64,000 nt of DNA. Origin: Arthrospiribacter ruber. GTDB taxonomy: Bacteria; Bacteroidota; Bacteroidia; Cytophagales; Cyclobacteriaceae. The notes beneath the pieces are model-generated. The model searched no databases. It saw nothing but the letters and a program-made list of their open reading frames with translations, and was not told the origin of the DNA. Both the position numbers and the translations under genes were made by a program. Each line of letters opens with the position of its first letter. The first letter of the stretch is position 1. Location: the NCBI RefSeq assembly GCF_019343195.1, contig NZ_RPHB01000003.1, forward strand, positions 62,001 to 126,000, given 5' to 3'. This document shows positions 13,178-64,000 of the stretch, piece by piece.

Positions 13178-13239
13178 GAATTAAGGTTGAGAATTATTTT
13201 ATTTTTAGTTATTTATTCCGAGTATTTACAATTTGGTAT

Positions 13240-13690
13240 TTACAGAAAGGAAATGACAGTCGGGCCTCCGTCATTCTGACGAAGGAAGAATCTCCTACCT
13301 TTTTTATCAAGAGACTCCCCGCAATACTGCGGGACAGGCTTTCGCTTCACTACCATTGACATCGATCGGGGCGACACGTCACTCTGACGAAGGAAGAGTC
13401 TCCCAAAATAGAGGAGATCTCCCGCAATGCTGCGGGACAGGCTTTCATCTCCGCAAGCTCCGATTACCAATGACAGATATGGAGGGATCGTCATTCTGAA
13501 CGCAGTGAAGAATCTCCTACCATGTGGGAGATGCTTCGACTCCGCAAGCTCCGCTCAGCATGACGCGTAATTTTGTCATTACCCTTTCTGAACATTCCCT
13601 AAATGTTAAAATCTCAGGATGACGTACACTAACTGTCATTTCCTTACCGTAAATGTCAATTTTAAAATCTCAGAGTGACGTGCCGCCCCG
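13240..13690. repeat. Repeat cluster 1: tandem hairpin-forming CGTCA...TGACG units
   Basis: At least three divergent copies of a roughly 100 bp unit begin at about 13271, 13378 and 13489 with CGTCA(T/C)TCTGA, continue with AAG(A/G)GTCTCC-type sequence, contain the hairpin CCCGCA...TGCGGG, and end in CTCCGCAAGCTCCG and TGAC(A/G). Similar units occur at 20045-20330 and at the right window edge. The 3' part (13560-13690) carries further TGTCATT fragments. The gap holds no credible gene; a short frame at 13240-13494 is made entirely of repeat sequence. Confidence 0.85.
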
Positions 13691-13709
13691 ATTTATGTCA
13701 ATGGTACTC

Positions 13710-19489: not shown

Positions 19490-20480
19490 GATAGGGGGAG
19501 TGGTACACAGACCACTGTCTCAACTGTACCGAGGCCTGTCTCAAATCTCACATCTCATATCTTTTATTTACGAAGTACGATTTACGATTGACGAGGCCTT
19601 TTCCATACTCCAACCTTATTTCTGGCGCCTTTGCGTCTTGGCGTGAACCCGTTTTTAATAGCCACGAAGGAACTAAGACACCAAGATGACTTATCCTTGT
19701 CATTTTGAGCGAAGTGAAAAATCTATGTTTGCCTATCATGAACAGACCCCTCCTTCGTCGGGGTGACAAGGTGAAGCCTTTTACATACTCCAACCCATCT
19801 TATGTCTTTTGTCTAGCGTCTTAAGTCTTAAAATGATTTACGAAGTACGATTTACGATTTACGAGGCCTAATTCATACTCCAGCCTTATTTCTAGCGCCT
19901 CTGCGCCTTGGCGTGAACCCATTATTAATAGCCATGAAGGAACTAAGACACCAAGATGACTTATCCTTGTCATTTTGAACGAAGTGAAAAATCTATGTTT
20001 TATTCTGATAGACAGACCCCTCCTTCGTAGCATTGACATAAATTTAGGGATCGTCACTCTGACGAAGGAAGAGTCTCCCAAAATAGGGGAGATCTCCTGC
20101 AATGCTGCGGGACAGGCTTTCATCTCCGCAAACTCCGGTTACCAATGACAGATATGGGGAGATCGTCATTCTGAACGCAGTGAAGAATCTCCTACCATGA
20201 GGGAGATGCTTCGACTCCGCAAGCTCCGCTACCATTGACAGAAACGTACGTCACTCTGACGAAGGAAGAGTCTCCCAAAAATATTGGAGATCCTTCATCT
20301 CCGCAAGCTCCGATTCAGGATGACGTACACCAACTGTCATTCCATTTCTGTAAATGCCAATTTTAAAATCTCGGGGTGACAAGGTGAAGCCTTTTACATA
20401 CTCCAACCCTTCTTGGTACTTGGTACCTTTCTCAAATCTTATATCTTTTGTCCAGCATCTTTGCTTGAACCTTACCCCAG
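19490..20480. repeat. Repeat cluster 3: large mosaic of at least four module families
   Basis: About 1 kb without a gene, between the ABA4-like start and the methyltransferase stop. It holds TACGAAGTACGATTTACGA blocks (19568, 19838), a long duplicated segment (about 19640-19765 and 19900-20032: CGTGAACCC, AAGGAACTAAGACACCAAG, TTGTCATTTTGA(A/G)CGAAG, ACCCCTCCTTCGT), three CGTCA-type hairpin units (20045, 20163, 20248) and a GGTACCTT / CATACTCCAA block at the right. Short frames inside are repeat-derived. Confidence 0.85.
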
Positions 20481-29591: not shown

Positions 29592-32500
29592 ATGCCTTTA
29601 TCCAAAACAGAACTTAACCACGCAGACAATTTTTTATATTATATCAACAAGTCTATAAAGCAGAAAGGCTATATGCTGTACCAATCCGGAGGGGTCAGGT
29701 ACAGGTACTTTGATCCGGATACTCAAAACCTTCATTTCCAGGTAAAGGGAAATGTTGAGGAGTCATATCAGGTGCAGATCAACCTTAGCCTTTCACCCGA
29801 ACCTGATTTTTTTAGCGATTATGATGAGGAAGAGGATTCCAGTTGCGAATGCATCTACTTCGAACAGGAACTTGAATGCAAGCATGTAGCCGCTGCGCTT
29901 TATTTTATTCTGCACAACAAGAAAAGTGATTTCAAAAAAATCCTTTCTGATGAGCCCAAAGACCAAAAAAGCGATAAAATCACTGCTTTCCCCATTAGCA
30001 TTCCTTGTTCTTTGGAGGAGATGGATAAGTTTCACGAGCTTATCCCGGATGATCCCAATAACAACTATTACGATGCGAACCTGAAGAGCGTCAAATTCCT
30101 GGAAAACGGCATCATCTATTATGTCTCGGGCTATTCCTACATGGATGAGCTGTCTGTCACCTACGACGAGGGACAGGTCACCATCAATGGCAGCATTAAA
30201 AGACCCCACCTGGTAAGGGCTGGCCTCAAGTGGCTTAAAATAAGATTTGAGGGAAAGGACAAGAGGGAATTGGGCCTACTTACCAGAGAACAAAGGGAAA
30301 AAATGATTTTGATGGAAGTGGAGGAAATGGGCCTGAAAGAGCAGCTGAAAGACCCGCTCAGTGCCATGGATTTTGTCCTGCATGACCAAAGGATTATTAT
30401 GATCAGCTCGGGCGAGTTGAATGGCTTGGTCAACCTGGACCAATACAAAAGTAATTTTACACATTACCTAAACCAAGCAAAGATAAAAAGCCTTGGCATG
30501 GGATCCTTCCAAGACACCAAGGAAGTGGACATTGGTACTTACAATGTGGCTTTTGCCTTTTGCTATAACCAATGGGGTAGCTTTACTGAAATCATACCTT
30601 TTATGGCCAAAGGTTCCAAAAAGGACCCGGAGGCTTTCTCCGTAAAGTTTGAGCGGCTGGATGATCCTCATGATATCCGCTTAAAAAGAAATCAGGATCT
30701 TGAGCGCATTTTATTCCTTAGGGACAGGTTCCAAAAGTCATTGCTCAACAAATCCAGCATGAATCCTTTTGATCAGTTCAGGGAATTTTATATAGCAGCC
30801 AAAGAATATCCCCTTTTTGTGTTTAAGGGCTTTCAGTATGAAACCCATAAAATCCGAAAAGCGCACTTTGATAAGCCCTTGGAGGCATTCAAAGCCAATG
30901 CCCAGTTGTTGATAGATAAAGGAGGTGTTATATACAATATCAGGACCATCATTGAATTTGGAGATAATAAATATGATTTGGCTGAATTGCAGGATCAGAT
31001 CATTTTTACCCAGGTTTTTGCCGTGTACAAAAATCAGGCTTTGTTGCTTTTTGATAGCGAGCGCCTATTAAAATTACTTGCCTTTCAAATGAAGAACAGC
31101 TTTATCCAAGTGTTGGATAAGGAATTTGACCAATACTTCAAACATATCCTATTGCCTATGGCCTCTTTTATAGAAATCTCGGATAAAACCGGTACCCTCA
31201 AAGAATCCGAAAACCCGGGACCGCTTCAAAAGCAATTGTACATTTCTGAACTGAATGGCCTTATCCTGCTGCGCCCGCAGGTGAAATATGCTGAATCTGC
31301 TTTTTCCAACCCATTGGAACAAAGTACCATTATCGATGCAGACAACAAAGCCATATACCTGCGGGATGAAGATTACGAAGATGAATACGTAGAATTTTTA
31401 AGGAAGCTCCATCCCAATTTCAAAAATGCCGGAAGTCAGGGACTTTTTTACCTGAATCAGGACAGTTTTATGAAGGATCTTTGGTTTTTCAAAGCTTTTG
31501 AAAAACTCAAATCAGAACAGGTGCGGGTCTTTGGGTTGGAAAAAATCAAAATCAAAAAGTACAACCCCTTCCCTCCAGCCATTTCCATGGAGTTTGGCTC
31601 CACACAGGACTGGTTTGAAGTCAGCGCCAAAGTGGCTTTTGGGGATCAAAAGGTCAAGTTGAAGGACATCAAAAAGGCCCTGGATCGAGATCAGGAATTT
31701 GTAGAATTGGCAGATGGAAGTATTGGGGTATTGCCACAGGAATGGGTCAAAAAATTCAGCAAGCTGTTCCGCTCCGGAGAAGCCGAGAAAGAAGGGCTGA
31801 AAGTACCCAAAACCCTTTTCCATGTGTTGGACGAATTTGAAGAGGCCCAAAGCTTCCCAGAGGTCATCCGTGAATTGGAGGAAAAAAAGGCCAAGCTCGC
31901 GGAATTTACCCAAATCAAAACTGCCAAAATACCTAAGAAACTGAAAGCCGAACTGAGAAAATACCAGCATACAGGCCTAAACTGGCTCAATTTCCTCCAG
32001 GAATATCAATGGGGAGGAATCCTCGCAGACGATATGGGCTTGGGCAAGACCCTTCAGATGATTGCCCTGATCTGTAAGCTGATCGAGCAGAACAAAAAGG
32101 CGAAGGTACTGGTAGTCGCCCCGACCACGCTCTTGTTCAACTGGAGAAATGAACTGGAAAAATTTGCACCCCACCTGGGTTATTTTGTCCATCATGGCAA
32201 TAGGTCTGACTCTTTGGAAGAGCTCAGCCAACATCAGGTGATCCTGACAAGCTATGGCCTGGTCATCAATGACCTGCCACTCCTCCAGCAGATACATTTT
32301 GAAGCCATCATTGCGGACGAATCCCAAGCCATCAAAAACACCCAATCACAGCGGTACAAGGCCATTACCAAGTTAAAAGGAAAGGTCAAAATGGCCATGA
32401 CAGGAACACCTATAGAAAACAGCCTGGCTGAGCTTTTCGCACAGATGAACTTTGTCAATCCCGGATTTTTCCTGTCTTTCAAAAGTTTCAAGGACAATTA

Positions 32501-33332
32501 CCTCAAGCCGCTCAAAAACGGTGACAGGGAGATTCTCAGTGAATTGCAGCACAAAATCAAGCCTTTTGTACTGAGGAGAACGAAGGAAGAGGTACTGACC
32601 GAACTCCCAGACAAAACAGAGGAATACCTGTATTGTGTGATGAAGCCTGCCCAAAGGAAGATTTATGATGCCTATAGAAATGAATACCGGGACTACCTGC
32701 TCAAGAAATTTGAGGAGGAGGGAGCCGAAAACTCCAAAATGTATGTGCTGGAAGGCCTGACCAAACTCCGGCTGGCCTGTGATGCCACCAACTTAGTACA
32801 GCATACCGAAGCTGCCAATGAATCGGTGAAAATTGAAATGCTGCTGGAACATATCCTGGAGAAAACCGGTAAACACAAGATATTGGTATTCAGTCAGTTT
32901 GTAAAAATGCTGGCATTGGTGCAGGAAAAACTGGAGGACAACCTGATAGAATATGCCTATCTCGACGGGAAGACTTCCCTGAAAGAACGTGAAAATGTGG
33001 TGCAGCAATTTCAGCAGGATGAGAAGAAAAGGGTGTTTTTGATCAGCCTTAAAGCCGGGGGAACCGGCCTAAATCTTACTGCCGCAGACTATGTGTATGT
33101 ATTGGATCCCTGGTGGAATCCTGCCGTAGAAAATCAGGCCATAGACCGCTGCTACCGCATGGGGCAGGAAAAACATGTCATCGCATACAGGATGATCTGT
33201 AAAGATACTGTGGAAGAAAAAATCATGCAGCTGCAGCAAGCCAAAAGTAAATTGGCCAAAGAAGTCATCTCTGAGGGTGACAGCTTCTTGGGGGCCTTGG
33301 ATAGGGAGAGTATGTTGGCGTTGTTCGAGTGA
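29592..33332 (+). CDS. SWIM zinc finger and SNF2-type helicase protein
   Basis: 1246 residues. The N-terminal SWIM zinc finger has the pattern CxC(x8)CxH (C85, C87, C96, H98), a nucleic-acid or protein contact module. About 700 residues without a recognised fold follow. The C-terminal SNF2/Rad54-type ATPase has Walker A DDMGLGKT (Lys819), DESQ box (909-912), and lobe 2 with ILVFSQF, AGGTGLNLTAADYV and DRCYRMGQ. Such proteins remodel protein-DNA complexes; in bacteria they are often RapA/HepA-like and linked to transcription or repair. It is convergent with the exonuclease-RecQ-UvrD fusion. No toxin or methylase partner lies nearby. Confidence 0.92.
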   Translation: MPLSKTELNHADNFLYYINKSIKQKGYMLYQSGGVRYRYFDPDTQNLHFQVKGNVEESYQVQINLSLSPEPDFFSDYDEEEDSSCECIYFEQELECKHVAAALYFILHNKKSDFKKILSDEPKDQKSDKITAFPISIPCSLEEMDKFHELIPDDPNNNYYDANLKSVKFLENGIIYYVSGYSYMDELSVTYDEGQVTINGSIKRPHLVRAGLKWLKIRFEGKDKRELGLLTREQREKMILMEVEEMGLKEQLKDPLSAMDFVLHDQRIIMISSGELNGLVNLDQYKSNFTHYLNQAKIKSLGMGSFQDTKEVDIGTYNVAFAFCYNQWGSFTEIIPFMAKGSKKDPEAFSVKFERLDDPHDIRLKRNQDLERILFLRDRFQKSLLNKSSMNPFDQFREFYIAAKEYPLFVFKGFQYETHKIRKAHFDKPLEAFKANAQLLIDKGGVIYNIRTIIEFGDNKYDLAELQDQIIFTQVFAVYKNQALLLFDSERLLKLLAFQMKNSFIQVLDKEFDQYFKHILLPMASFIEISDKTGTLKESENPGPLQKQLYISELNGLILLRPQVKYAESAFSNPLEQSTIIDADNKAIYLRDEDYEDEYVEFLRKLHPNFKNAGSQGLFYLNQDSFMKDLWFFKAFEKLKSEQVRVFGLEKIKIKKYNPFPPAISMEFGSTQDWFEVSAKVAFGDQKVKLKDIKKALDRDQEFVELADGSIGVLPQEWVKKFSKLFRSGEAEKEGLKVPKTLFHVLDEFEEAQSFPEVIRELEEKKAKLAEFTQIKTAKIPKKLKAELRKYQHTGLNWLNFLQEYQWGGILADDMGLGKTLQMIALICKLIEQNKKAKVLVVAPTTLLFNWRNELEKFAPHLGYFVHHGNRSDSLEELSQHQVILTSYGLVINDLPLLQQIHFEAIIADESQAIKNTQSQRYKAITKLKGKVKMAMTGTPIENSLAELFAQMNFVNPGFFLSFKSFKDNYLKPLKNGDREILSELQHKIKPFVLRRTKEEVLTELPDKTEEYLYCVMKPAQRKIYDAYRNEYRDYLLKKFEEEGAENSKMYVLEGLTKLRLACDATNLVQHTEAANESVKIEMLLEHILEKTGKHKILVFSQFVKMLALVQEKLEDNLIEYAYLDGKTSLKERENVVQQFQQDEKKRVFLISLKAGGTGLNLTAADYVYVLDPWWNPAVENQAIDRCYRMGQEKHVIAYRMICKDTVEEKIMQLQQAKSKLAKEVISEGDSFLGALDRESMLALFE

Positions 33333-33545: not shown

Positions 33546-33590
33546 ATTTACAAATTGTAATTTACAAAATGTAATTTACAATTTGTAAAT
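33546..33590. repeat. 45 bp near-perfect palindrome between two helicase genes
   Basis: Two 21 bp arms (33546-33566 and 33570-33590) around a central AAA, complementary at 20 of 21 positions and built from repeated TTTACA / TGTAAA words. It lies in a 383 bp convergent gap between the stops of the SNF2 and RecQ-fusion genes. There is no terminal T run, so it is not a classical terminator. Nothing else recognisable is in the gap. Confidence 0.8.
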
Positions 33591-33715
33591 TGATTTGGTA
33601 TATTATTTAGTCCTGTTCTGTAAAAATATTGGATCAGGTCAAGCCTGCCTGTTTTTTGAACCAAAATGGATTTAATTTTTATCACTTCAGAATAAAAATT
33701 GGAGGATTTTTCTAA

Positions 33716-36700
33716 TCACAAGTTTCTTTTATCTAAATCAGTGTCCCCACTCACTTCACTTTTGCCAAAAACCACCTCTGGCAACACCACCAAAGCTTCC
33801 TTTCCCGTATCGGAATCCGTCCAATACACCATCCAATTGACCTTGACGCTTTTCAGCAGGTAATTTCTCATTGCAAGCTGCTCAATGGTTTTTTGGAAAG
33901 CAAATGAAAAACGAAGTATAGGCTGTCCTTGGGCATTAAGGCAATCCTGCCCGTTAAACCTGAGCTTTTCCCCAGGTCTGAGTCGGGAAACCTCCCGCTG
34001 TCGGCTATGAAAAAAACTTAGAAAGATATCCTTATGCAACAGCTGCATGATCAGGGTATCGGTATCTTCGAATAGATTGGATTCCTCTTTGAATTTCATC
34101 TGATTAACTTTCAATGTGTCCAAATACTGACCTTGGTAATGAATGGAAAGCAGACTTTTTGCCCTCGTCATCCCCACATAAAGCAATCGCTTTTCTTTTT
34201 CTTCTCTGATCTGCTTCTGTTGAAGCATCAGAAATACCTGATCAAATTCTTTTCCCTTGGCCTTGTGAATAGTGGAAACCAATATGCTTTCAGAAGACAA
34301 TCTGTAAAAATCCTCGATTCGGGACTCCAAGATGAATGTTTCCAGGTCACTTTTAAACCTGACCTTGGGATAGATCTTTTCAAAATCCTCCAACATGTTG
34401 CTGACCCAATCGAAGTGGGTACTGTGACCAAATTCCTTTATCAAAACCTCTTTGGCATAATTCCATTTCTCTTCCAGAATGGTGTATTCCCCAGGCTGAA
34501 GTTTAAGTGCTTTGAAAAATATCCGAACCTCATATAGGTTAAGCAGATTGAAAAGATCATTGCTTTGGACCAAGCTTGCAGGAAGGCCATTCTGAATTAG
34601 CAAACTTACTATTTTGTGGGCTTCTTCGTTGGTTTTGGTCAGTACGCCGACAGTACCGTTCAGGTCTGTGGATAAAACCTCATCCACCAAAGGCCTGACC
34701 ATAAAATCCCCAATATGCTTTGTGAGCCTGAGCTCACCGGGACTTTGGTCCTTGGCCATGATGGGAGTATGCTTTAGTCTTTGGGCAATGGTTTCCACCC
34801 ATTGGTTGCTGAAGTCCACGAGATTGCTCTTGCTTCTGAAATTTTCCACCAACTCATACTTGACGGCTTTCTTTTCTGTGATAAACCTTTCCAAATACTG
34901 GGAGCTTGATCCCCGGAATTCGTAGATGTTCTGGTCATCATCGCCTACGGCAATGACCCTCATTTCTTCATTTTGATCCATCAGGGCTTCTACCAAAGCA
35001 TATTCTTCTGCACTCATGTCCTGGGCTTCATCGATGACCAACACCGTCTTGGTGATTTCTTTGATCTCTGCTTTGTTTTCCCTGATGAGTTTGGTGGCCT
35101 GTGCGATAATCTCATCTGATTTTTCCAAAGTCCCCATTTTTCCCAAGAGGTCAAAGCAATAGGAATGAAAGGTCTTGATGTCCAAATACAAGGCAGCATT
35201 TCCGATCAGGTCCATCAGCCGCTTCTTAAATTCAGTCGCCGCCGCCCGGGAAAAAGTAAGCATCAGCAACTGTTCCTGCTTGACATCTTCCATCAAGAGA
35301 AGGGCTGCCAGTTTGTGGACAAGTATGCGGGTTTTGCCGCTGCCAGGACCCGCCGCCACCACGATATACTTGGAGTCTTTGTCCTTAATGATTTTCAATT
35401 GGGCAGGTGACAGTTCACCGAAAAGTTGCTTGAATTTGGCCGGGGTGATGTTCTGGCTGATCTCTTTTTGTCTCTCGCCTTTAAAATATTTGTTGAGAAA
35501 TGCGGAATAATTCATCTGAAAGTAATCTTCGACAAAGCGCAGGGCATCCTGATAATCGGCGATCATCTTTTTGGCATATTCTCCTACGATATGGATCTGC
35601 TGCACCTTGTTTTCGTAAAATTTCTCCAATTTCTGATAGTCCTCCTGCTTATAACGGGAACGAGTGTCTTCTATGGTTCTTTCTACTGTCAGCCTGTTAT
35701 AAAGAACGAGAAATCCACCTTCTATTTTTAGAGATTCTATTCGGGAGAGGTAAAAAAGGGCATCCTCCACCTCTGCTGAGGTACAATTTTTTACAAAAAG
35801 ACTTGAAGAGGCTCCGAAACCTTCTTTGAGTTCCTGAACAGAAAAATCCACTGACATCTCCCCGGAGAATAGCGGCAGATCATTGTCCGGAGAATCGGCA
35901 TGTTCAAAAAGGTAATGGATGATAAATTTAGCAATTTCATGTCTTTGGTGAAACTTCTCCTTCAACTCTTCCAAGGGCAGGTTCAATTTGAGTTCCACGT
36001 GGTTTTTGGAGGTTTTGGAAAACCTTTTGTCCACCCAATTTTTGATGCTCCAATAATTGAATACTGAGCGTATAAGGGCCGGAGTGACCCCTTGCAAGCC
36101 TTCTAACTCAGCAGCATCATTCAGGGCTTTGAGGTTATACACTTCTGCCTTTTGGGATAAAAGCGGAAGTAAAAAATTTTCCAAACGTCCAAAGGAATCC
36201 ACAATTTCCAAGGAGCGGTTGATATTTTCGGATTTACGGACAAAGGCTTTTAGGTCTTTGGCATCCGCAAGGATTTTCTCTTCCCTGAGCAATTGAATGA
36301 TTTCGATTACATCCTCCCTGACCATGCCCAGATGATCTGCGATGTAGTCGACCCTTGCCTCTGCTTCTTCGTCTTTGGCTTTTTTTCGACTTTTGGAGGA
36401 GAAAAGTTTTTTGATGATCCGGACTGCTTTTTCTTTTTGCTTTTCCGAAAACATTGTGGACAATTCAATTTTGGAAATGGCTTCTTGCGCAGTTTTGGTC
36501 TGAATGCTGCTGGCAAAAATTTTGGGCATGTTCTGACCTCTTTTTAAATACCCAGCATCTTCCAAAGCAGCTATAGCCGTGGTCACCCGGGTTTCCAGAT
36601 CCATGATAGAATCGTCCCAACCCGCCTTTCTTGCAATTTCCAAAGCAGAATTGGATACCTGCTTACGGTAGCGTGTAAGTTCCTTTATGGCCTTCCACAC

Positions 36701-38557
36701 CTGCTGAATTTCCTTGATAGTAAGTTTGGTCTGATTGAGCAGGATAAAATGCTTGCTGAGGTCTTCTTCATCAAACAGTACAAAGCAGTCCGCTTCAATG
36801 TTTTCATCCCGGCCTGCACGGCCTGCTTCCTGTACATAGTTTTCCAGTGAATCTGAAATCTCATAATGAACCACAAGCCCCACATCCTTTTTGTCCACAC
36901 CCATACCAAATGCCGAAGTGGCGACCATGATGTTCACCTCTCCTGAAATGAAGGCATTCTGGTTTTCGGTCTTTTCCGCTTTATCCATTTTACCATGGTA
37001 GGCCCTTGCCTGAAAACCGTCTTTATTCAGCCTTTCTGCCAGTAAAAAAGCCCTACGCGTCCTGGAAACATAGATGATGCTGGGGCATTGTTTGGCCTCC
37101 AATAGGTCACGGAGAGCGGCATACTTCTCATCCTCTCTATTTCTTTCCACCACCTCAAATTTCAGATTTGTCCGGGATACCGTAGAGCGGAAAATTTCTA
37201 GGTTCAAGCCTAGCTTTTCCTGGAAATATTTTCGGATATCTTCAATTACTTTTTGTTTGGCAGTGGCCGTAAAGCAGGAAATGGGAATTGGATCTTGCAA
37301 TCTTTTCTTTTGCTCAAGTGAACGGATAAAATCTGCGATATACAGGTAATCAATCCTGAAGTCCTGTCCCCATGAAGAAAAACAATGTGCTTCATCGATG
37401 ACAAAGCGGTTAATTTTCCTGCCCAGCAATAAGCGTTCAATAGTATTGGAACGAAGTGACTCCGGAGAAATATAAAGCAGGGAAGCGGAACCATCTTCTA
37501 CTCTTTCAAAGGATTTAGCCCTTTCAATAGGGTCGAGGAGACCATTGATCGTGACTACTTCGGTGATGCCCATAGTTTCAAGATTATCCACTTGATCTTT
37601 CATAAGGGATTGTAAGGGGGAAATTACCACTGTAAGCGCCATTTCATTTCTTCCGGCCATCAGTGCGGGCAATTGGAAAGTGATGGATTTACCTCCACCT
37701 GTAGGGAAAATGGCCAATAAAGATTTACCGTCCATCGCAGCCTGTACAGCCTTTTCCTGCAAAGGCTCCCCACCGTATGACCGGAACCTATCAAAGCCAA
37801 AAATCTGCTGCAAACCCAAGTGGATATCATGCTTTTCATTACAATAAGTACAGCCTTGCAAACAAGGTCTGCCTCTCAAAAGGGTCAAAAGCCTGTCTGT
37901 GTCAGGGAATTGACGAAGAACCCAGGGCGGAGTAATGCTATTGCGGTCCCCACTGTGGATAAGTGATAAGGCATAGGCCAAAGAAAGAGGCTTTTCACCG
38001 ACCATTTTCTCCAGTTCCGAGTGAGAGCAGAGCAAACCTTTAAATTTTTCACGGACCAATTTCGCAGGCTTATCCACATTTTTTTTGAAATTCAGAAATT
38101 CAAAAAACCCCTTAAAAGCGTCGGTTTGATTCAATAGGGCATAAAAAATCTCCTGAATACCTTCATCCAAGGACCTGAAAGCACTTAGCTCATCAAAAAA
38201 CAGTGCTTTAGCTTTTAGGGCATCATTGAAAGGGTTATTGAGACTGTCAGATTGTAGTTTATCATCCTTGACCAAATGGTGATAGGGCTGTTTGGGAAAA
38301 AGCAGTGGTGATAGGTAAAGGGTATCGATGATATGGGGAAAAACAATTCCAATCTTTTCGAAATAAACGTTATCATGACCGAGTATATTATGGCCGCAGA
38401 AAAATGAGGAGTCTTTTATGAAATCCAGAAAATCACCCGTATTTCGGGAATGAAAGGTGTTTCCATCGGAATTGACTGCTCCAATATCCAATATCTTTCC
38501 ACTATTGGGTTCTACTTCAATATCGATGAAAGTGATCTTTTTATTCGACTCCTTCAT
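33716..38557 (-). CDS. DEDD exonuclease - RecQ helicase - UvrD helicase fusion
   Basis: 1613 residues with three modules. Residues 1-120: a DnaQ/DEDD-type 3'-5' exonuclease domain (FIDIEVE with D12 and E14; NILGHDNVY with D62; NNPFNDALKA with D112). About 230-250: a Cys cluster (CLQGCTYCNEKH). About 265-620: a RecQ-type DEAH helicase (Walker A FPTGGGKS near 287, VIDEAHCFSSWGQDFR near 388, SRTNLKFEVVERN), followed by a winged-helix-like region; no HRDC domain is visible. About 1060-1500: a second helicase of UvrD/PcrA type (AAGPGSGKTR near 1070, VIDEAQDMS near 1175, GDDDQNIYEFRG, TIHKAKGKEFDQ, LYVGMTRAK near 1465). The C-terminal 80 residues are a small beta domain. It presumably resolves or degrades recombination or stalled-fork DNA. 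Confidence 0.92.
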   Translation of the reverse strand: MKESNKKITFIDIEVEPNSGKILDIGAVNSDGNTFHSRNTGDFLDFIKDSSFFCGHNILGHDNVYFEKIGIVFPHIIDTLYLSPLLFPKQPYHHLVKDDKLQSDSLNNPFNDALKAKALFFDELSAFRSLDEGIQEIFYALLNQTDAFKGFFEFLNFKKNVDKPAKLVREKFKGLLCSHSELEKMVGEKPLSLAYALSLIHSGDRNSITPPWVLRQFPDTDRLLTLLRGRPCLQGCTYCNEKHDIHLGLQQIFGFDRFRSYGGEPLQEKAVQAAMDGKSLLAIFPTGGGKSITFQLPALMAGRNEMALTVVISPLQSLMKDQVDNLETMGITEVVTINGLLDPIERAKSFERVEDGSASLLYISPESLRSNTIERLLLGRKINRFVIDEAHCFSSWGQDFRIDYLYIADFIRSLEQKKRLQDPIPISCFTATAKQKVIEDIRKYFQEKLGLNLEIFRSTVSRTNLKFEVVERNREDEKYAALRDLLEAKQCPSIIYVSRTRRAFLLAERLNKDGFQARAYHGKMDKAEKTENQNAFISGEVNIMVATSAFGMGVDKKDVGLVVHYEISDSLENYVQEAGRAGRDENIEADCFVLFDEEDLSKHFILLNQTKLTIKEIQQVWKAIKELTRYRKQVSNSALEIARKAGWDDSIMDLETRVTTAIAALEDAGYLKRGQNMPKIFASSIQTKTAQEAISKIELSTMFSEKQKEKAVRIIKKLFSSKSRKKAKDEEAEARVDYIADHLGMVREDVIEIIQLLREEKILADAKDLKAFVRKSENINRSLEIVDSFGRLENFLLPLLSQKAEVYNLKALNDAAELEGLQGVTPALIRSVFNYWSIKNWVDKRFSKTSKNHVELKLNLPLEELKEKFHQRHEIAKFIIHYLFEHADSPDNDLPLFSGEMSVDFSVQELKEGFGASSSLFVKNCTSAEVEDALFYLSRIESLKIEGGFLVLYNRLTVERTIEDTRSRYKQEDYQKLEKFYENKVQQIHIVGEYAKKMIADYQDALRFVEDYFQMNYSAFLNKYFKGERQKEISQNITPAKFKQLFGELSPAQLKIIKDKDSKYIVVAAGPGSGKTRILVHKLAALLLMEDVKQEQLLMLTFSRAAATEFKKRLMDLIGNAALYLDIKTFHSYCFDLLGKMGTLEKSDEIIAQATKLIRENKAEIKEITKTVLVIDEAQDMSAEEYALVEALMDQNEEMRVIAVGDDDQNIYEFRGSSSQYLERFITEKKAVKYELVENFRSKSNLVDFSNQWVETIAQRLKHTPIMAKDQSPGELRLTKHIGDFMVRPLVDEVLSTDLNGTVGVLTKTNEEAHKIVSLLIQNGLPASLVQSNDLFNLLNLYEVRIFFKALKLQPGEYTILEEKWNYAKEVLIKEFGHSTHFDWVSNMLEDFEKIYPKVRFKSDLETFILESRIEDFYRLSSESILVSTIHKAKGKEFDQVFLMLQQKQIREEKEKRLLYVGMTRAKSLLSIHYQGQYLDTLKVNQMKFKEESNLFEDTDTLIMQLLHKDIFLSFFHSRQREVSRLRPGEKLRFNGQDCLNAQGQPILRFSFAFQKTIEQLAMRNYLLKSVKVNWMVYWTDSDTGKEALVVLPEVVFGKSEVSGDTDLDKRNL

Positions 38558-38645
38558 TTTTGGTGATTTAAAACAGCATTAAAATGCAGGCATTCCACAC
38601 AATAATATTTAATTTAGTTGATACTTTAACCTTATCCATTCAGGT

Positions 38646-42309: not shown

Positions 42310-43710
42310 ATGACCAAACCGAATCCCTTTTTTAAAAATTTCAGAAGCCCTGGGGTCTATGTAGAAGAGGTTTCCTTGGCCCCTACCCATATTGCAGAAG
42401 TAGAAACAGCCATACCTGCATTTATTGGATACACACAGTGCTCCGGGGAAAATTCAGGAATTGACCTGACTGGGGTTCCAAAAATGATCTCCTCTCTTCA
42501 AGAATACAGCACATTTTTCGGATCAGCCGGACAGGAACAAGGTATTTCCCTTGAAATCAATTTGAATACTACCCCTACTTTTCATGCACTGGTGAACAAG
42601 CCCAATGCATGCCTGCTATATTACGGAATCCAGTCCTTTTTTGAAAATGGAGGAAAAAATTGCTTTATAGTTTCTATAGGGAAAACCGGGGGCAATGCGA
42701 AGTTAGGAGACTACCTGAGTGGACTGGAAGAAAGTCGCAAGGAAAAAAGGATATCACTTCTATCCTTTCCGGATGCTGCCGGCCTTTTGGGAAAAAGTGC
42801 TAATTACCAACTTTTGGCAAAGGCAACAGCGCAATGTGCCGAATTGCGTACTCGCTTTTTGTTGGTAGATGTTCCCAGAGAAGACACGACCTGCCTGGAT
42901 ATGTTGACAGATTTCAGAAATGGGATATTGCAAAGCAATGGGTTGAGCTTTTCTGCTGCGTATTTCCCTCATATCATTAGTAAGTTGAATTATGCTTTTC
43001 AACCATCTGAAGTTGCTGTTTCACTAATTGATGAAAGCGGTAAAAAACAAAATTTGACTTTAGCTGAGCTTCTTAGGCAAAATCCAAGACATTTTAGAAC
43101 TGCGATAGTAGAAATTGGGAAATTGAGACCCATACTTCCTCCCTCTACTTTTGTAGCAGGGGTATTTGCTGATATGGATGCCCGTCAGGGAGTTTGGAAA
43201 GCTCCAGCCAACGTTTCCCTTCAGGGAATTAAAAGCTTGACTTCAGCCATTTCACAGAGTGAACAGCAACATTTCAATGTGGACATTTTAAATGGGAAAT
43301 CAGTAAATGTGATCAGAGAGTTTCCAGGAAGAGGTTTCTTGCTTTGGGGCGCCAGGACATTGGCGGGCAATGACAACGAGTGGAGGTTTGTTCCTGTACG
43401 TCGCTTGGCAATTATGGTAGAAAGCTCCGTGAAGGAGGCCTTGGAAAAAGTGGTTTTCGAGCCAAACAACCCCAATACATGGACCAAGGTCAGGGTAATG
43501 ACAGAAAATTTTTTGCAGATGTTATGGAGAAAAGGTGCGCTTCAGGGGAGTACTATAGAAAATGCTTTTTACGTAAGGTGCGGCTTAGGCCATACCATGA
43601 ATCAGCAGGATGTATCTGAGGGAAGGCTAGTGCTAGAATTTGGAATCTCCATGATGAGGCCTTCTGAATTTACAGTTTTTAGGCTTATTCAGAATTTGCA
43701 AAGTAGCTAA
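42310..43710 (+). CDS. Contractile tail sheath protein, lone gene (eCIS/phage-tail type)
   Basis: 466 residues. N-terminus SPGVYVEEVSLAPTHIAEVETAIPAFIGYT is the hallmark of sheath proteins of contractile tails and extracellular contractile injection systems; the subtilisin-like insert domain spans the middle (YYGIQSFFENGGKNCFIVSIG). The C-terminal sheath domain ends in FYVRCGLGHTMNQQDVSEGRLVLEFGISMMRPSEFTVFRLIQ, which is the handshake region. Length and both domains look complete, so it is not an obvious fragment. No tube, baseplate, LysM or AAA+ gene lies within the window; repeat clusters border it on both sides. Either an isolated remnant or a sheath used with parts encoded elsewhere. Confidence 0.88.
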   Translation: MTKPNPFFKNFRSPGVYVEEVSLAPTHIAEVETAIPAFIGYTQCSGENSGIDLTGVPKMISSLQEYSTFFGSAGQEQGISLEINLNTTPTFHALVNKPNACLLYYGIQSFFENGGKNCFIVSIGKTGGNAKLGDYLSGLEESRKEKRISLLSFPDAAGLLGKSANYQLLAKATAQCAELRTRFLLVDVPREDTTCLDMLTDFRNGILQSNGLSFSAAYFPHIISKLNYAFQPSEVAVSLIDESGKKQNLTLAELLRQNPRHFRTAIVEIGKLRPILPPSTFVAGVFADMDARQGVWKAPANVSLQGIKSLTSAISQSEQQHFNVDILNGKSVNVIREFPGRGFLLWGARTLAGNDNEWRFVPVRRLAIMVESSVKEALEKVVFEPNNPNTWTKVRVMTENFLQMLWRKGALQGSTIENAFYVRCGLGHTMNQQDVSEGRLVLEFGISMMRPSEFTVFRLIQNLQSS

Positions 43711-63679: not shown

Positions 63680-64000
63680 AGTTAGCTGTGATTTAAGAGG
63701 TACGATCTACGATTTACGAGGCCTAATTCATACTCCAACCTTATGCCTAGCGCCTTTGCGTCTCCCGATTCTCGGGACAGGTTAGGCGCGAACCTTTATT
63801 CCCCCTAAGAGACCAAGTTGACTTCGCCTTGTCATTTTGAACGAAGTGAAAAATCCATGTTTGTATTTAATAAACAGACCTCTCCTTTGTACCAATGACA
63901 GATATGTGGGGATCGTCATTCTGAGATTTTAAAATTTTGCATTTACAGAAAGGCAATGACAGTTGGTGTACGTCATCCTGAATCGGAGCTTGCGGAGATG
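63680..64000. repeat. Repeat cluster 9 at right window edge
   Basis: Forward-oriented modules: TACGATTTACGAGGCCTAAT, CATACTCCAACC, CTAGCGCCTTTGCGTCTCCC with the hairpin CCCGATTCTCGGG, GGCGCGAACC, TTGTCATTTTGAACGAAGTG, ACAGACCTCTCC, and at the end CGTCATTCTGA / CGTCATCCTGA hairpin-unit fragments. It continues beyond the window. No gene. Confidence 0.8.

Follow-up and report, generated by a model that had tools for sequence, protein, structure and literature searches.

A fusion of a DEDD-fold exonuclease with RecQ-like and UvrD-like helicases forms a widespread, patchily inherited protein family

We analysed a 64,000-nucleotide stretch of the genome of Arthrospiribacter ruber (contig NZ_RPHB01000003.1, positions 62,001 to 126,000; hereafter the window; the genome itself is labelled G000) and found that its minus strand encodes a 1613-residue protein in which a DEDD-fold exonuclease domain, a RecQ-like superfamily 2 (SF2) helicase core and a UvrD-like superfamily 1 (SF1) helicase core follow one another in a single open reading frame (ORF). 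The exonuclease-RecQ-UvrD fusion is real and belongs to a widespread, patchily inherited family. The 'RecQ family' annotation conceals a distinct enzyme family spanning several phyla: annotated plasmid homologs are named 'RecQ family ATP-dependent DNA helicase', and distant ones 'UvrD-helicase domain-containing protein'. A full-text literature search, whose reach excluded most subscription papers, found no description of such a fusion, and the accessible parts of PMC5512222, PMC9122126 and PMC12458937 do not describe it. The function that we favour, tentatively, is that of a self-contained nuclease and dual helicase acting on foreign or aberrant DNA, such as that of a phage or plasmid.

A first-pass annotation of this DNA had proposed a single chain carrying exonuclease, RecQ and UvrD modules, all with intact motifs. 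The ORF, its strand and its length are confirmed (Table 1), and all three modules, for which that annotation had called for domain searches and structure prediction, were found. For the two helicases the claim of intact motifs holds. In the 88-row protein alignment on which our counts of residue conservation are based, 87-88 of 88 rows retain the motif residue at most of the positions checked in the two helicases, Walker A and B included; the less conserved positions include G288 and A578 (85 rows), A1178 (82), M1463 (77), I1430 (75) and G1462 (20).

The RecQ part gave Pfam matches above cut-off to DEAD (residues 265-440) and Helicase_C (477-583), passed the RecQ superfamily model TIGR00614 of NCBIfam (273.5 bits, cut-off 219.8) and, as a model of residues 240-613, was matched to the RecQ catalytic core 1oyy (VIA Z 27.4, 344 aligned residues, root-mean-square deviation (rmsd) 2.3). 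In the region following its DEAH motif (392-405), W396, F400, R401, D403 and Y404 are present in all 88 rows; we take this region to be the aromatic-rich loop of RecQ. The score for the bacterial RecQ equivalog TIGR01389 stayed below its cut-off (311.1 against 640.2 bits), the four-cysteine RQC zinc site of RecQ proper is absent from the 88 rows, and Pfam gave no HRDC match at E 1, in a search that could miss a divergent HRDC.

The SF1 part matched UvrD-helicase (best stretch 1050-1141) and UvrD_C (best stretch 1382-1474), again above cut-off, with 115.2 bits for PF00580 (cut-off 23) and 70 bits for PF13361 (cut-off 25.6). Its model (model positions 446-894, residues 1045-1493 of the protein) was matched to Deinococcus radiodurans UvrD (4c2u_A; VIA Z 35.4, 439 aligned residues, rmsd 5.2). 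Since the cut-off of the UvrD equivalog TIGR01075 was not reached (116.4 against 1144.45 bits), the core is UvrD-like and not UvrD proper. RecQ and UvrD are both families of 3′-5′ motors, so that, of the opposing or complementary activities on recombination intermediates proposed by the first-pass annotation, 'opposing' is unsupported.

Pfam gave no match to the residues N-terminal of the RecQ core, even at E 1. The best PDB matches to a family profile of residues 1-245, built from 17 rows, were entries titled exodeoxyribonuclease III (E 3e-4 to 2.5e-3), which we take to be TREX-like DEDDh enzymes; two Ceg4 entries (E 0.03), DnaQ (0.056) and a DEDDh entry (0.49) followed at chance-like E-values. 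Compared with Pfam individually, the 17 profile members gave no convincing exonuclease family (the best, DNA_pol_B_exo1 at E 0.023, came from 1 of 17). A profile of residues 1-130, set in a single comparison against DEDDh proteins picked by PF00929 from the A. ruber genome and related ones, gave an hhalign match with a probability of 97.8% and E 9e-13. The domain is modelled at a predicted local distance difference test (pLDDT) of about 90 over most of its length, and below 50 at residues 94-101. Structure comparison tested mainly residues 240-623 and about 1041-1496, and among the structure matches listed, which helicases dominate, there was no exonuclease entry.

The four acidic residues of the DEDD fold are near-invariant: D62 and D112 each stand in 86 of 88 rows and D12 and E14 each in 85, every one of these positions also having two gaps, and the lone odd letters at positions 12 and 14 probably stem from N-terminally truncated frames. 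The catalytic His of the DEDDh subgroup, however, is absent. Its position, five before the last Asp, holds Asn in 83 rows (N107 in A. ruber), Ser in three and a gap in two, so that His appears in none of the 86 rows with a letter. Nor does the domain fall into the DEDDy subgroup, position 108 (four before the last Asp) being Asn in 82 rows, Asp in four and a gap in two. The nuclease motif set is thus not fully intact, the phrase 'intact motifs' was too strong for this module, and the substitution of the catalytic His across the aligned family makes it uncertain that the nuclease is competent. As read from their sequences, by eye in the two cases where profile alignments end before the motif, distant split relatives on Hymenobacter and Rhodobacter plasmids have H-x4-D, and a Deinococcus relative has N-x4-D, as in the fused family. 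On this small sample, Asn at the DEDDh His position would appear to be a trait of the fused family, and it raises the question of whether the general base of a DEDD nuclease is replaceable.

The replaced His suggests one alternative, which we consider unlikely: that the DEDD fold is dead or weak and recognises 3′ ends, while the protein works as a dual translocase, remodelling DNA or removing proteins from it without degradation. The uniformity of the Asn or Ser, set beside the His of the two split relatives, argues for this. However, four near-invariant acidic residues would be unusual in a dead nuclease, and His 93, conserved in 85 of 88 rows, could, speculatively, take part.

Between the nuclease and the RecQ core lies a set of conserved cysteines. 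The first-pass annotation had seen a three-cysteine cluster (CxxxCxxC) before the RecQ core instead of after it, where the RecQ zinc domain normally lies. C232, C236 and C239 do stand ahead of the core, but the set has four members and not three: C177 is the fourth partner, and the set is complete in 86 of 88 rows. In the Aliarcobacter and Nostoc rows, which lack the cluster, C177 is missing as well, one of the two having a lone aligned cysteine at 239, and proteobacterial rows space the motif as C-x4-C-x2-C. Such co-conservation suggests a putative tetra-cysteine metal site, for zinc or perhaps iron-sulphur. As no cysteine is conserved in more than 80% of the 88 rows at residues 592-1133, the usual post-core zinc module of RecQ is missing.

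The sole Pfam signal in the middle region is a weak, sub-threshold helix-turn-helix (HTH) match (Table 1), and its comparison by sequence with solved structures gave nothing credible (best E 0.039, SUMO). Judged by secondary structure in the model, its helix-helix-strand units look like repeated winged helices; model confidence is low at residues about 600-677 and 950-1015. The C-terminal domain had no Pfam match at E 1 and is modelled with a pLDDT mostly near 90, low at the final residues.

Table 1. Features of the fusion gene and associated loci (window positions unless a locus is named).
Feature	Position	Strand	Basis
Whole gene, exonuclease-RecQ-UvrD fusion	33716..38557	-	1613-residue ORF from ATG; domain profiles and homologs
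DEDD-fold exonuclease domain, residues 1-130 (D12, E14, D62, D112; N107 at the DEDDh His position)	38168..38557	-	alignment, profiles, model
Linker, mostly helical, residues 131-245 (contains C177 and CxxxCxxC at 232/236/239)	37823..38167	-	alignment, model
CxxxCxxC motif, residues 232-239	37841..37864	-	ORF translation, alignment
RecQ-like SF2 helicase core, residues 246-612 (GGGKS, DEAH, TAT, QEAGRAGRD)	36722..37822	-	profiles, structure match, alignment
Middle region, residues 613-1040 (sub-threshold HTH match at 737-764)	35438..36721	-	Pfam, model
UvrD/Rep/PcrA-like SF1 helicase core, residues 1041-1490	34088..35437	-	Pfam, structure match, alignment
C-terminal domain, residues 1491-1613	33719..34087	-	model
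Segment missing from the G432 locus (AAAA at junction)	33667..38573		edges counted from flank sequence
HNH_4 and methyltransferase-HIT gene pair	L162:13040-14997, L164:5607-7495, L160:5609-7581, L180:15202-17114		

The fusion is not a local artefact. We took the best 80 of 175 genome loci, on whichever replicon they lie; they are mostly from Bacteroidota and match at 56-90%, with a few titled Bacillota, Fibrobacterota, Lentisphaerota or Thermodesulfobacteriota and several that are metagenome-assembled genomes. A single frame of at least 1587 residues is present in 75 of the 80, which rules out the frameshift that the first-pass annotation had named as a possible refutation; splits were found only in distant relatives. 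The shorter frames are those of L014 (1292 residues), L013 (1542), L053 and L086 (1492 each) and L087 (1472). The match in L086 runs to the contig end and that in L087 begins near the contig start, while L014 is probably the gene of genome G395, which has one TAG.

Plasmid versions in Proteobacteria, Campylobacterota and Cyanobacteria are 29-33% identical to the A. ruber protein, and domain profiles detected the exonuclease, RecQ, middle and UvrD segments in all eight full-length plasmid homologs tested (L090-L095, L208 and L209), of which L208 and L209 alone are independent tests, the profiles having been built from an alignment that holds L090-L095. Of two Deinococcus relatives, L202 keeps exonuclease, RecQ and UvrD, and L203 has RecQ and UvrD in the examined frame, with no exonuclease match. 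On a Hymenobacter swuensis plasmid (L200:4314-12471) the modules lie in two overlapping genes with the break inside the RecQ core, a split that may stem from a sequencing frameshift. A plasmid of Rhodobacter sp. CZR27 (L201:4985-12497) has a separate exonuclease gene, with a weak cold-shock domain match (25.6 bits, cut-off 27), then one small gene and then a RecQ-UvrD gene; with the exonuclease two genes upstream, the trio stays linked when unfused.

A phage origin of the gene was considered and is unsupported. In a single narrow scan, the N-terminal 245 residues had five pattern matches among viral contigs, none of them confirmed, which says little; 147 phage records had a match, none covering 80% of the query, and those listed fall in the RecQ part. 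The named entries matched in a viral structure library are mostly helicases.

The gene is accessory and loss-prone. Searching with residues 1-240, and counting A. ruber itself, we found a match in 15 genomes out of 395 from the phylum and in 31 out of 148 from the family. In four of the 31 only fragments remain, none with a frame longer than 103 residues (G413, G484, G444 and G417), and two of the other 27 have an internal stop (G490 and G395). In G413 and G484, residues 1-36 adjoin residues 1425-1597 (1425-1586 in G413) near the gene for an SMP-30 protein. Genome G432 has the same locus as the window at about 95% DNA identity (97% for the SMP-30 protein and 96% for an SNF2 protein), and the fusion gene is cleanly absent from it, with the 4-nt microhomology AAAA at both edges of the missing segment. 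This state reads as loss, because close relatives share the locus with the gene. Transposon-like insertion was rejected: neither a target-site duplication nor a flanking inverted repeat was seen at the empty site, the microhomology being all that it has. In a protein tree of 80 rows, made by a quick method and with 21 of 77 inner branches open, four family labels change ten times against a minimum of three; this is compatible with transfer between lineages, though a count above one does not prove it.

Beside the empty site, G432 has a 957-bp insertion (L258:8965-9921) with one frame open over 319 residues, whose product looks, from its sequence, like a P-loop ATPase. Short stretches of the window (13215-13705, 20140-20381 and 63893-64000) match the same places of L258 at 73-94% identity and may belong to a dispersed repeat family.

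Six loci of close relatives keep the gene near SMP-30 (L009, L010, L012, L014 with its shortened frame, L017 and L084). This constant place also fits an accessory enzyme of DNA repair or recombination, a bacterial functional analogue of WRN or MrfAB that unwinds and trims 3′ ends at stalled forks, D-loops or lesions. We regard such a role as quite possible and place it close behind action on foreign DNA. RecQ, UvrD and DEDD exonucleases are all families of repair. MrfAB is reported to be a pair of helicase and 3′-5′ exonuclease acting in repair (PMC12458937), and DinG an exonuclease-helicase fusion (PMC12525004). Against a repair role stand the absence of the gene from most relatives examined, its clean loss or survival as remnants, and the two further RecQ-like genes of the A. 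ruber genome.

We next consider the neighbours of the gene across its homologs. Among 272 proteins encoded within four genes of it in 36 regions no partner is constant, the largest similarity group being present in 5 of the 36, and we therefore rejected an obligate partner gene. This also bears on whether the gene serves mobile elements, helping plasmids or integrated elements to replicate or become established. On an Aliarcobacter plasmid it lies beside ParA/ParB and replication genes, and in Bacteroides ParA and SSB genes are no more than 12 kb away; however, of 72,556 plasmid records just four match at least 80% of the query at one place, and the 36 regions hold no constant replication or transfer partner. 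We consider such service very improbable.

The neighbourhood is richer in PADLOC matches than the control, which hints at a defence-rich setting. At E 1e-15, 130 neighbour proteins matched 159 families and 130 control proteins 16, these being counts of families, not proteins, with only 16 control regions. The neighbours were taken from two genes on each side, leaving out L165 and L181 (duplicates of L167 and L180) and proteins below 100 residues; the controls were random proteins from 16 regions of carrier genomes (20 requested, three absent and one of 95 bases dropped). Among the matches listed at E 3e-82 or better, the neighbours gave nine names (HNH, MTase_I, Specificity_I, PDC-S02, PDC-S36, DpdE, Orf5, ZorD and AbiEi) and the control one (PDC-M16A). 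A single SNF2 protein, that of L161, accounts for both DpdE and ZorD, and L154 has the best MTase_I match. On an Allochromatium plasmid, a type I restriction-modification operon lies one gene from the fusion gene.

One gene pair recurs, in which the gene of a methyltransferase-HIT protein comes after that of an HNH_4 protein (Table 1). It adjoins the fusion gene in L160, L162 and L164 and lies three to four genes off in L180. In genome G519 (L164) the three genes are co-directional with 27 bp between matches; in L160, from another class, pair and fusion gene are convergent, 17 bp apart. The methyltransferase-HIT gene is present in 14 of 148 family genomes, 11 of which also have the fusion gene or a remnant (2.9 expected), with a hypergeometric probability of 1.6e-6, or 7e-5 without remnants (9 of 14), both values too small for related genomes. 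In eight of the 11 the two lie on the same contig within 15 kb, and in five within 4 kb. The A. ruber genome has no methyltransferase-HIT match at E 1e-40. We take the pair to be a further set of island genes, a frequent companion of the fusion gene but not a required part of it.

Action on foreign or aberrant DNA is favoured by the union of all modules in one frame, the linkage of the trio where it is unfused, the near-invariant ATPase motifs of both helicases, the patchy carriage, the label changes in the tree, the remnants and clean absence, the presence on plasmids, the PADLOC-rich neighbours and the HNH_4/methyltransferase-HIT pair. In such a role, the RecQ-like and UvrD-like motors, both of 3′-5′ families, would open or clear the DNA and pass a 3′ end to the N-terminal 3′-5′ exonuclease module, which the four-cysteine metal site would tether to the helicase. 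The middle region, possibly made of winged helices, would bind DNA, and the accessory gene would attack foreign or aberrant DNA with no need of an obligate operon partner. The first-pass description of a self-contained unwinding and trimming machine agrees with the anatomy and with the lack of an obligate partner, but the nuclease is of uncertain competence, and both motors come from families of one polarity. A narrower proposal, which we hold to be doubtful, is a partnerless single-gene immune system in which the nuclease, with Asn for His, would stay weak or conditional until the dual motors engage foreign or damaged DNA, the four-cysteine site before the core would replace the lost RecQ zinc domain, and the HNH/methyltransferase-HIT pair would stand alongside in some lineages.

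Several observations weigh against a defence role. The His-to-Asn change may mean that the nuclease is dead. In the window, the fusion gene is flanked by genes for an SNF2-like helicase and the SMP-30 protein, amid ordinary metabolic genes, and the constant place near SMP-30 in six Cyclobacteriaceae loci would also suit a repair gene inherited vertically and at times lost. Shared ancestry of that locus also inflates the family association with the HNH/methyltransferase-HIT pair; in the phylum sample, 2 of 16 methyltransferase-HIT carriers also have the fusion gene (0.12 by chance), the distance between them being 1.5 Mb in one of these two genomes. The two proteins of the pair lack strong PADLOC matches, showing only weak ones of the HIT family (ThsC), and the limits of the PADLOC comparison noted above apply here too. 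The fusion protein's own PADLOC matches, DpdF, PsyrT and GajB, can be generic helicase similarity. A single gene that is present or cleanly absent in near-identical loci is directly testable for defence against phages and plasmids.

The SNF2-type helicase of the window (29592-33332, 1246 residues, with a SWIM zinc finger match just above cut-off) is convergent with the fusion gene. It was rejected as an obligate partner: in a search of L009-L095 and L141-L146, with flanks of up to 10 kb, L009 alone had a full-length copy, and G432 has the SNF2 gene without the fusion gene. In G414 a short SNF2 tail adjoins the fusion gene. Between the two convergent genes, three tandem 14-nt units form a near-perfect inverted repeat (33546-33590), which may be a two-way terminator. 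Elsewhere in the window, a phage tail-sheath-like protein is encoded at 42310-43710 (PF04984, PF17482); the scan covered ten window genes and showed no second tail protein.

Both DNA repair and phage defence have nuclease-helicase fusions at their centre, and the present one has several partial counterparts. The animal protein WRN consists of a DEDDy exonuclease, a RecQ core, RQC and HRDC. Like the fusion protein, it places an N-terminal DEDD exonuclease before a RecQ core in one chain, and its helicase domain is among our sequence and structure matches; the fusion protein differs in the absence of the RQC zinc site, the additional UvrD motor, the four-cysteine site before the core and the Asn at the fifth exonuclease position. 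DinG-type proteins and MrfAB are not known to have an SF1 motor. They likewise join a DEDD or 3′-5′ exonuclease to an SF2 helicase, in one chain or as a pair; that helicase is XPD-like (DinG) or YprA-like (MrfAB) and not RecQ. AdnAB, AddAB and RecBCD also couple a UvrD-like motor to a nuclease, and all three are among the structure matches of the SF1 part; unlike the fusion, they use RecB-type nucleases and are not known to have a RecQ motor. The RecQ-like core is related in sequence to the conflict helicases PsyrT (RqlH) and DpdF (281 and 319 bits in PADLOC), in matches that cover only residues 242-695, and the cut-off of the DpdF equivalog NF041063 was not reached (217.9 against 550 bits). 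The UvrD-like motor is related in sequence to GajB of Gabija. GajB is not known to carry RecQ or exonuclease and needs GajA, whereas no OLD-type GajA partner lies beside the fusion gene. A single chain that unites an SF2 RecQ-like motor, an SF1 UvrD-like motor and a DEDD nuclease is unusual.

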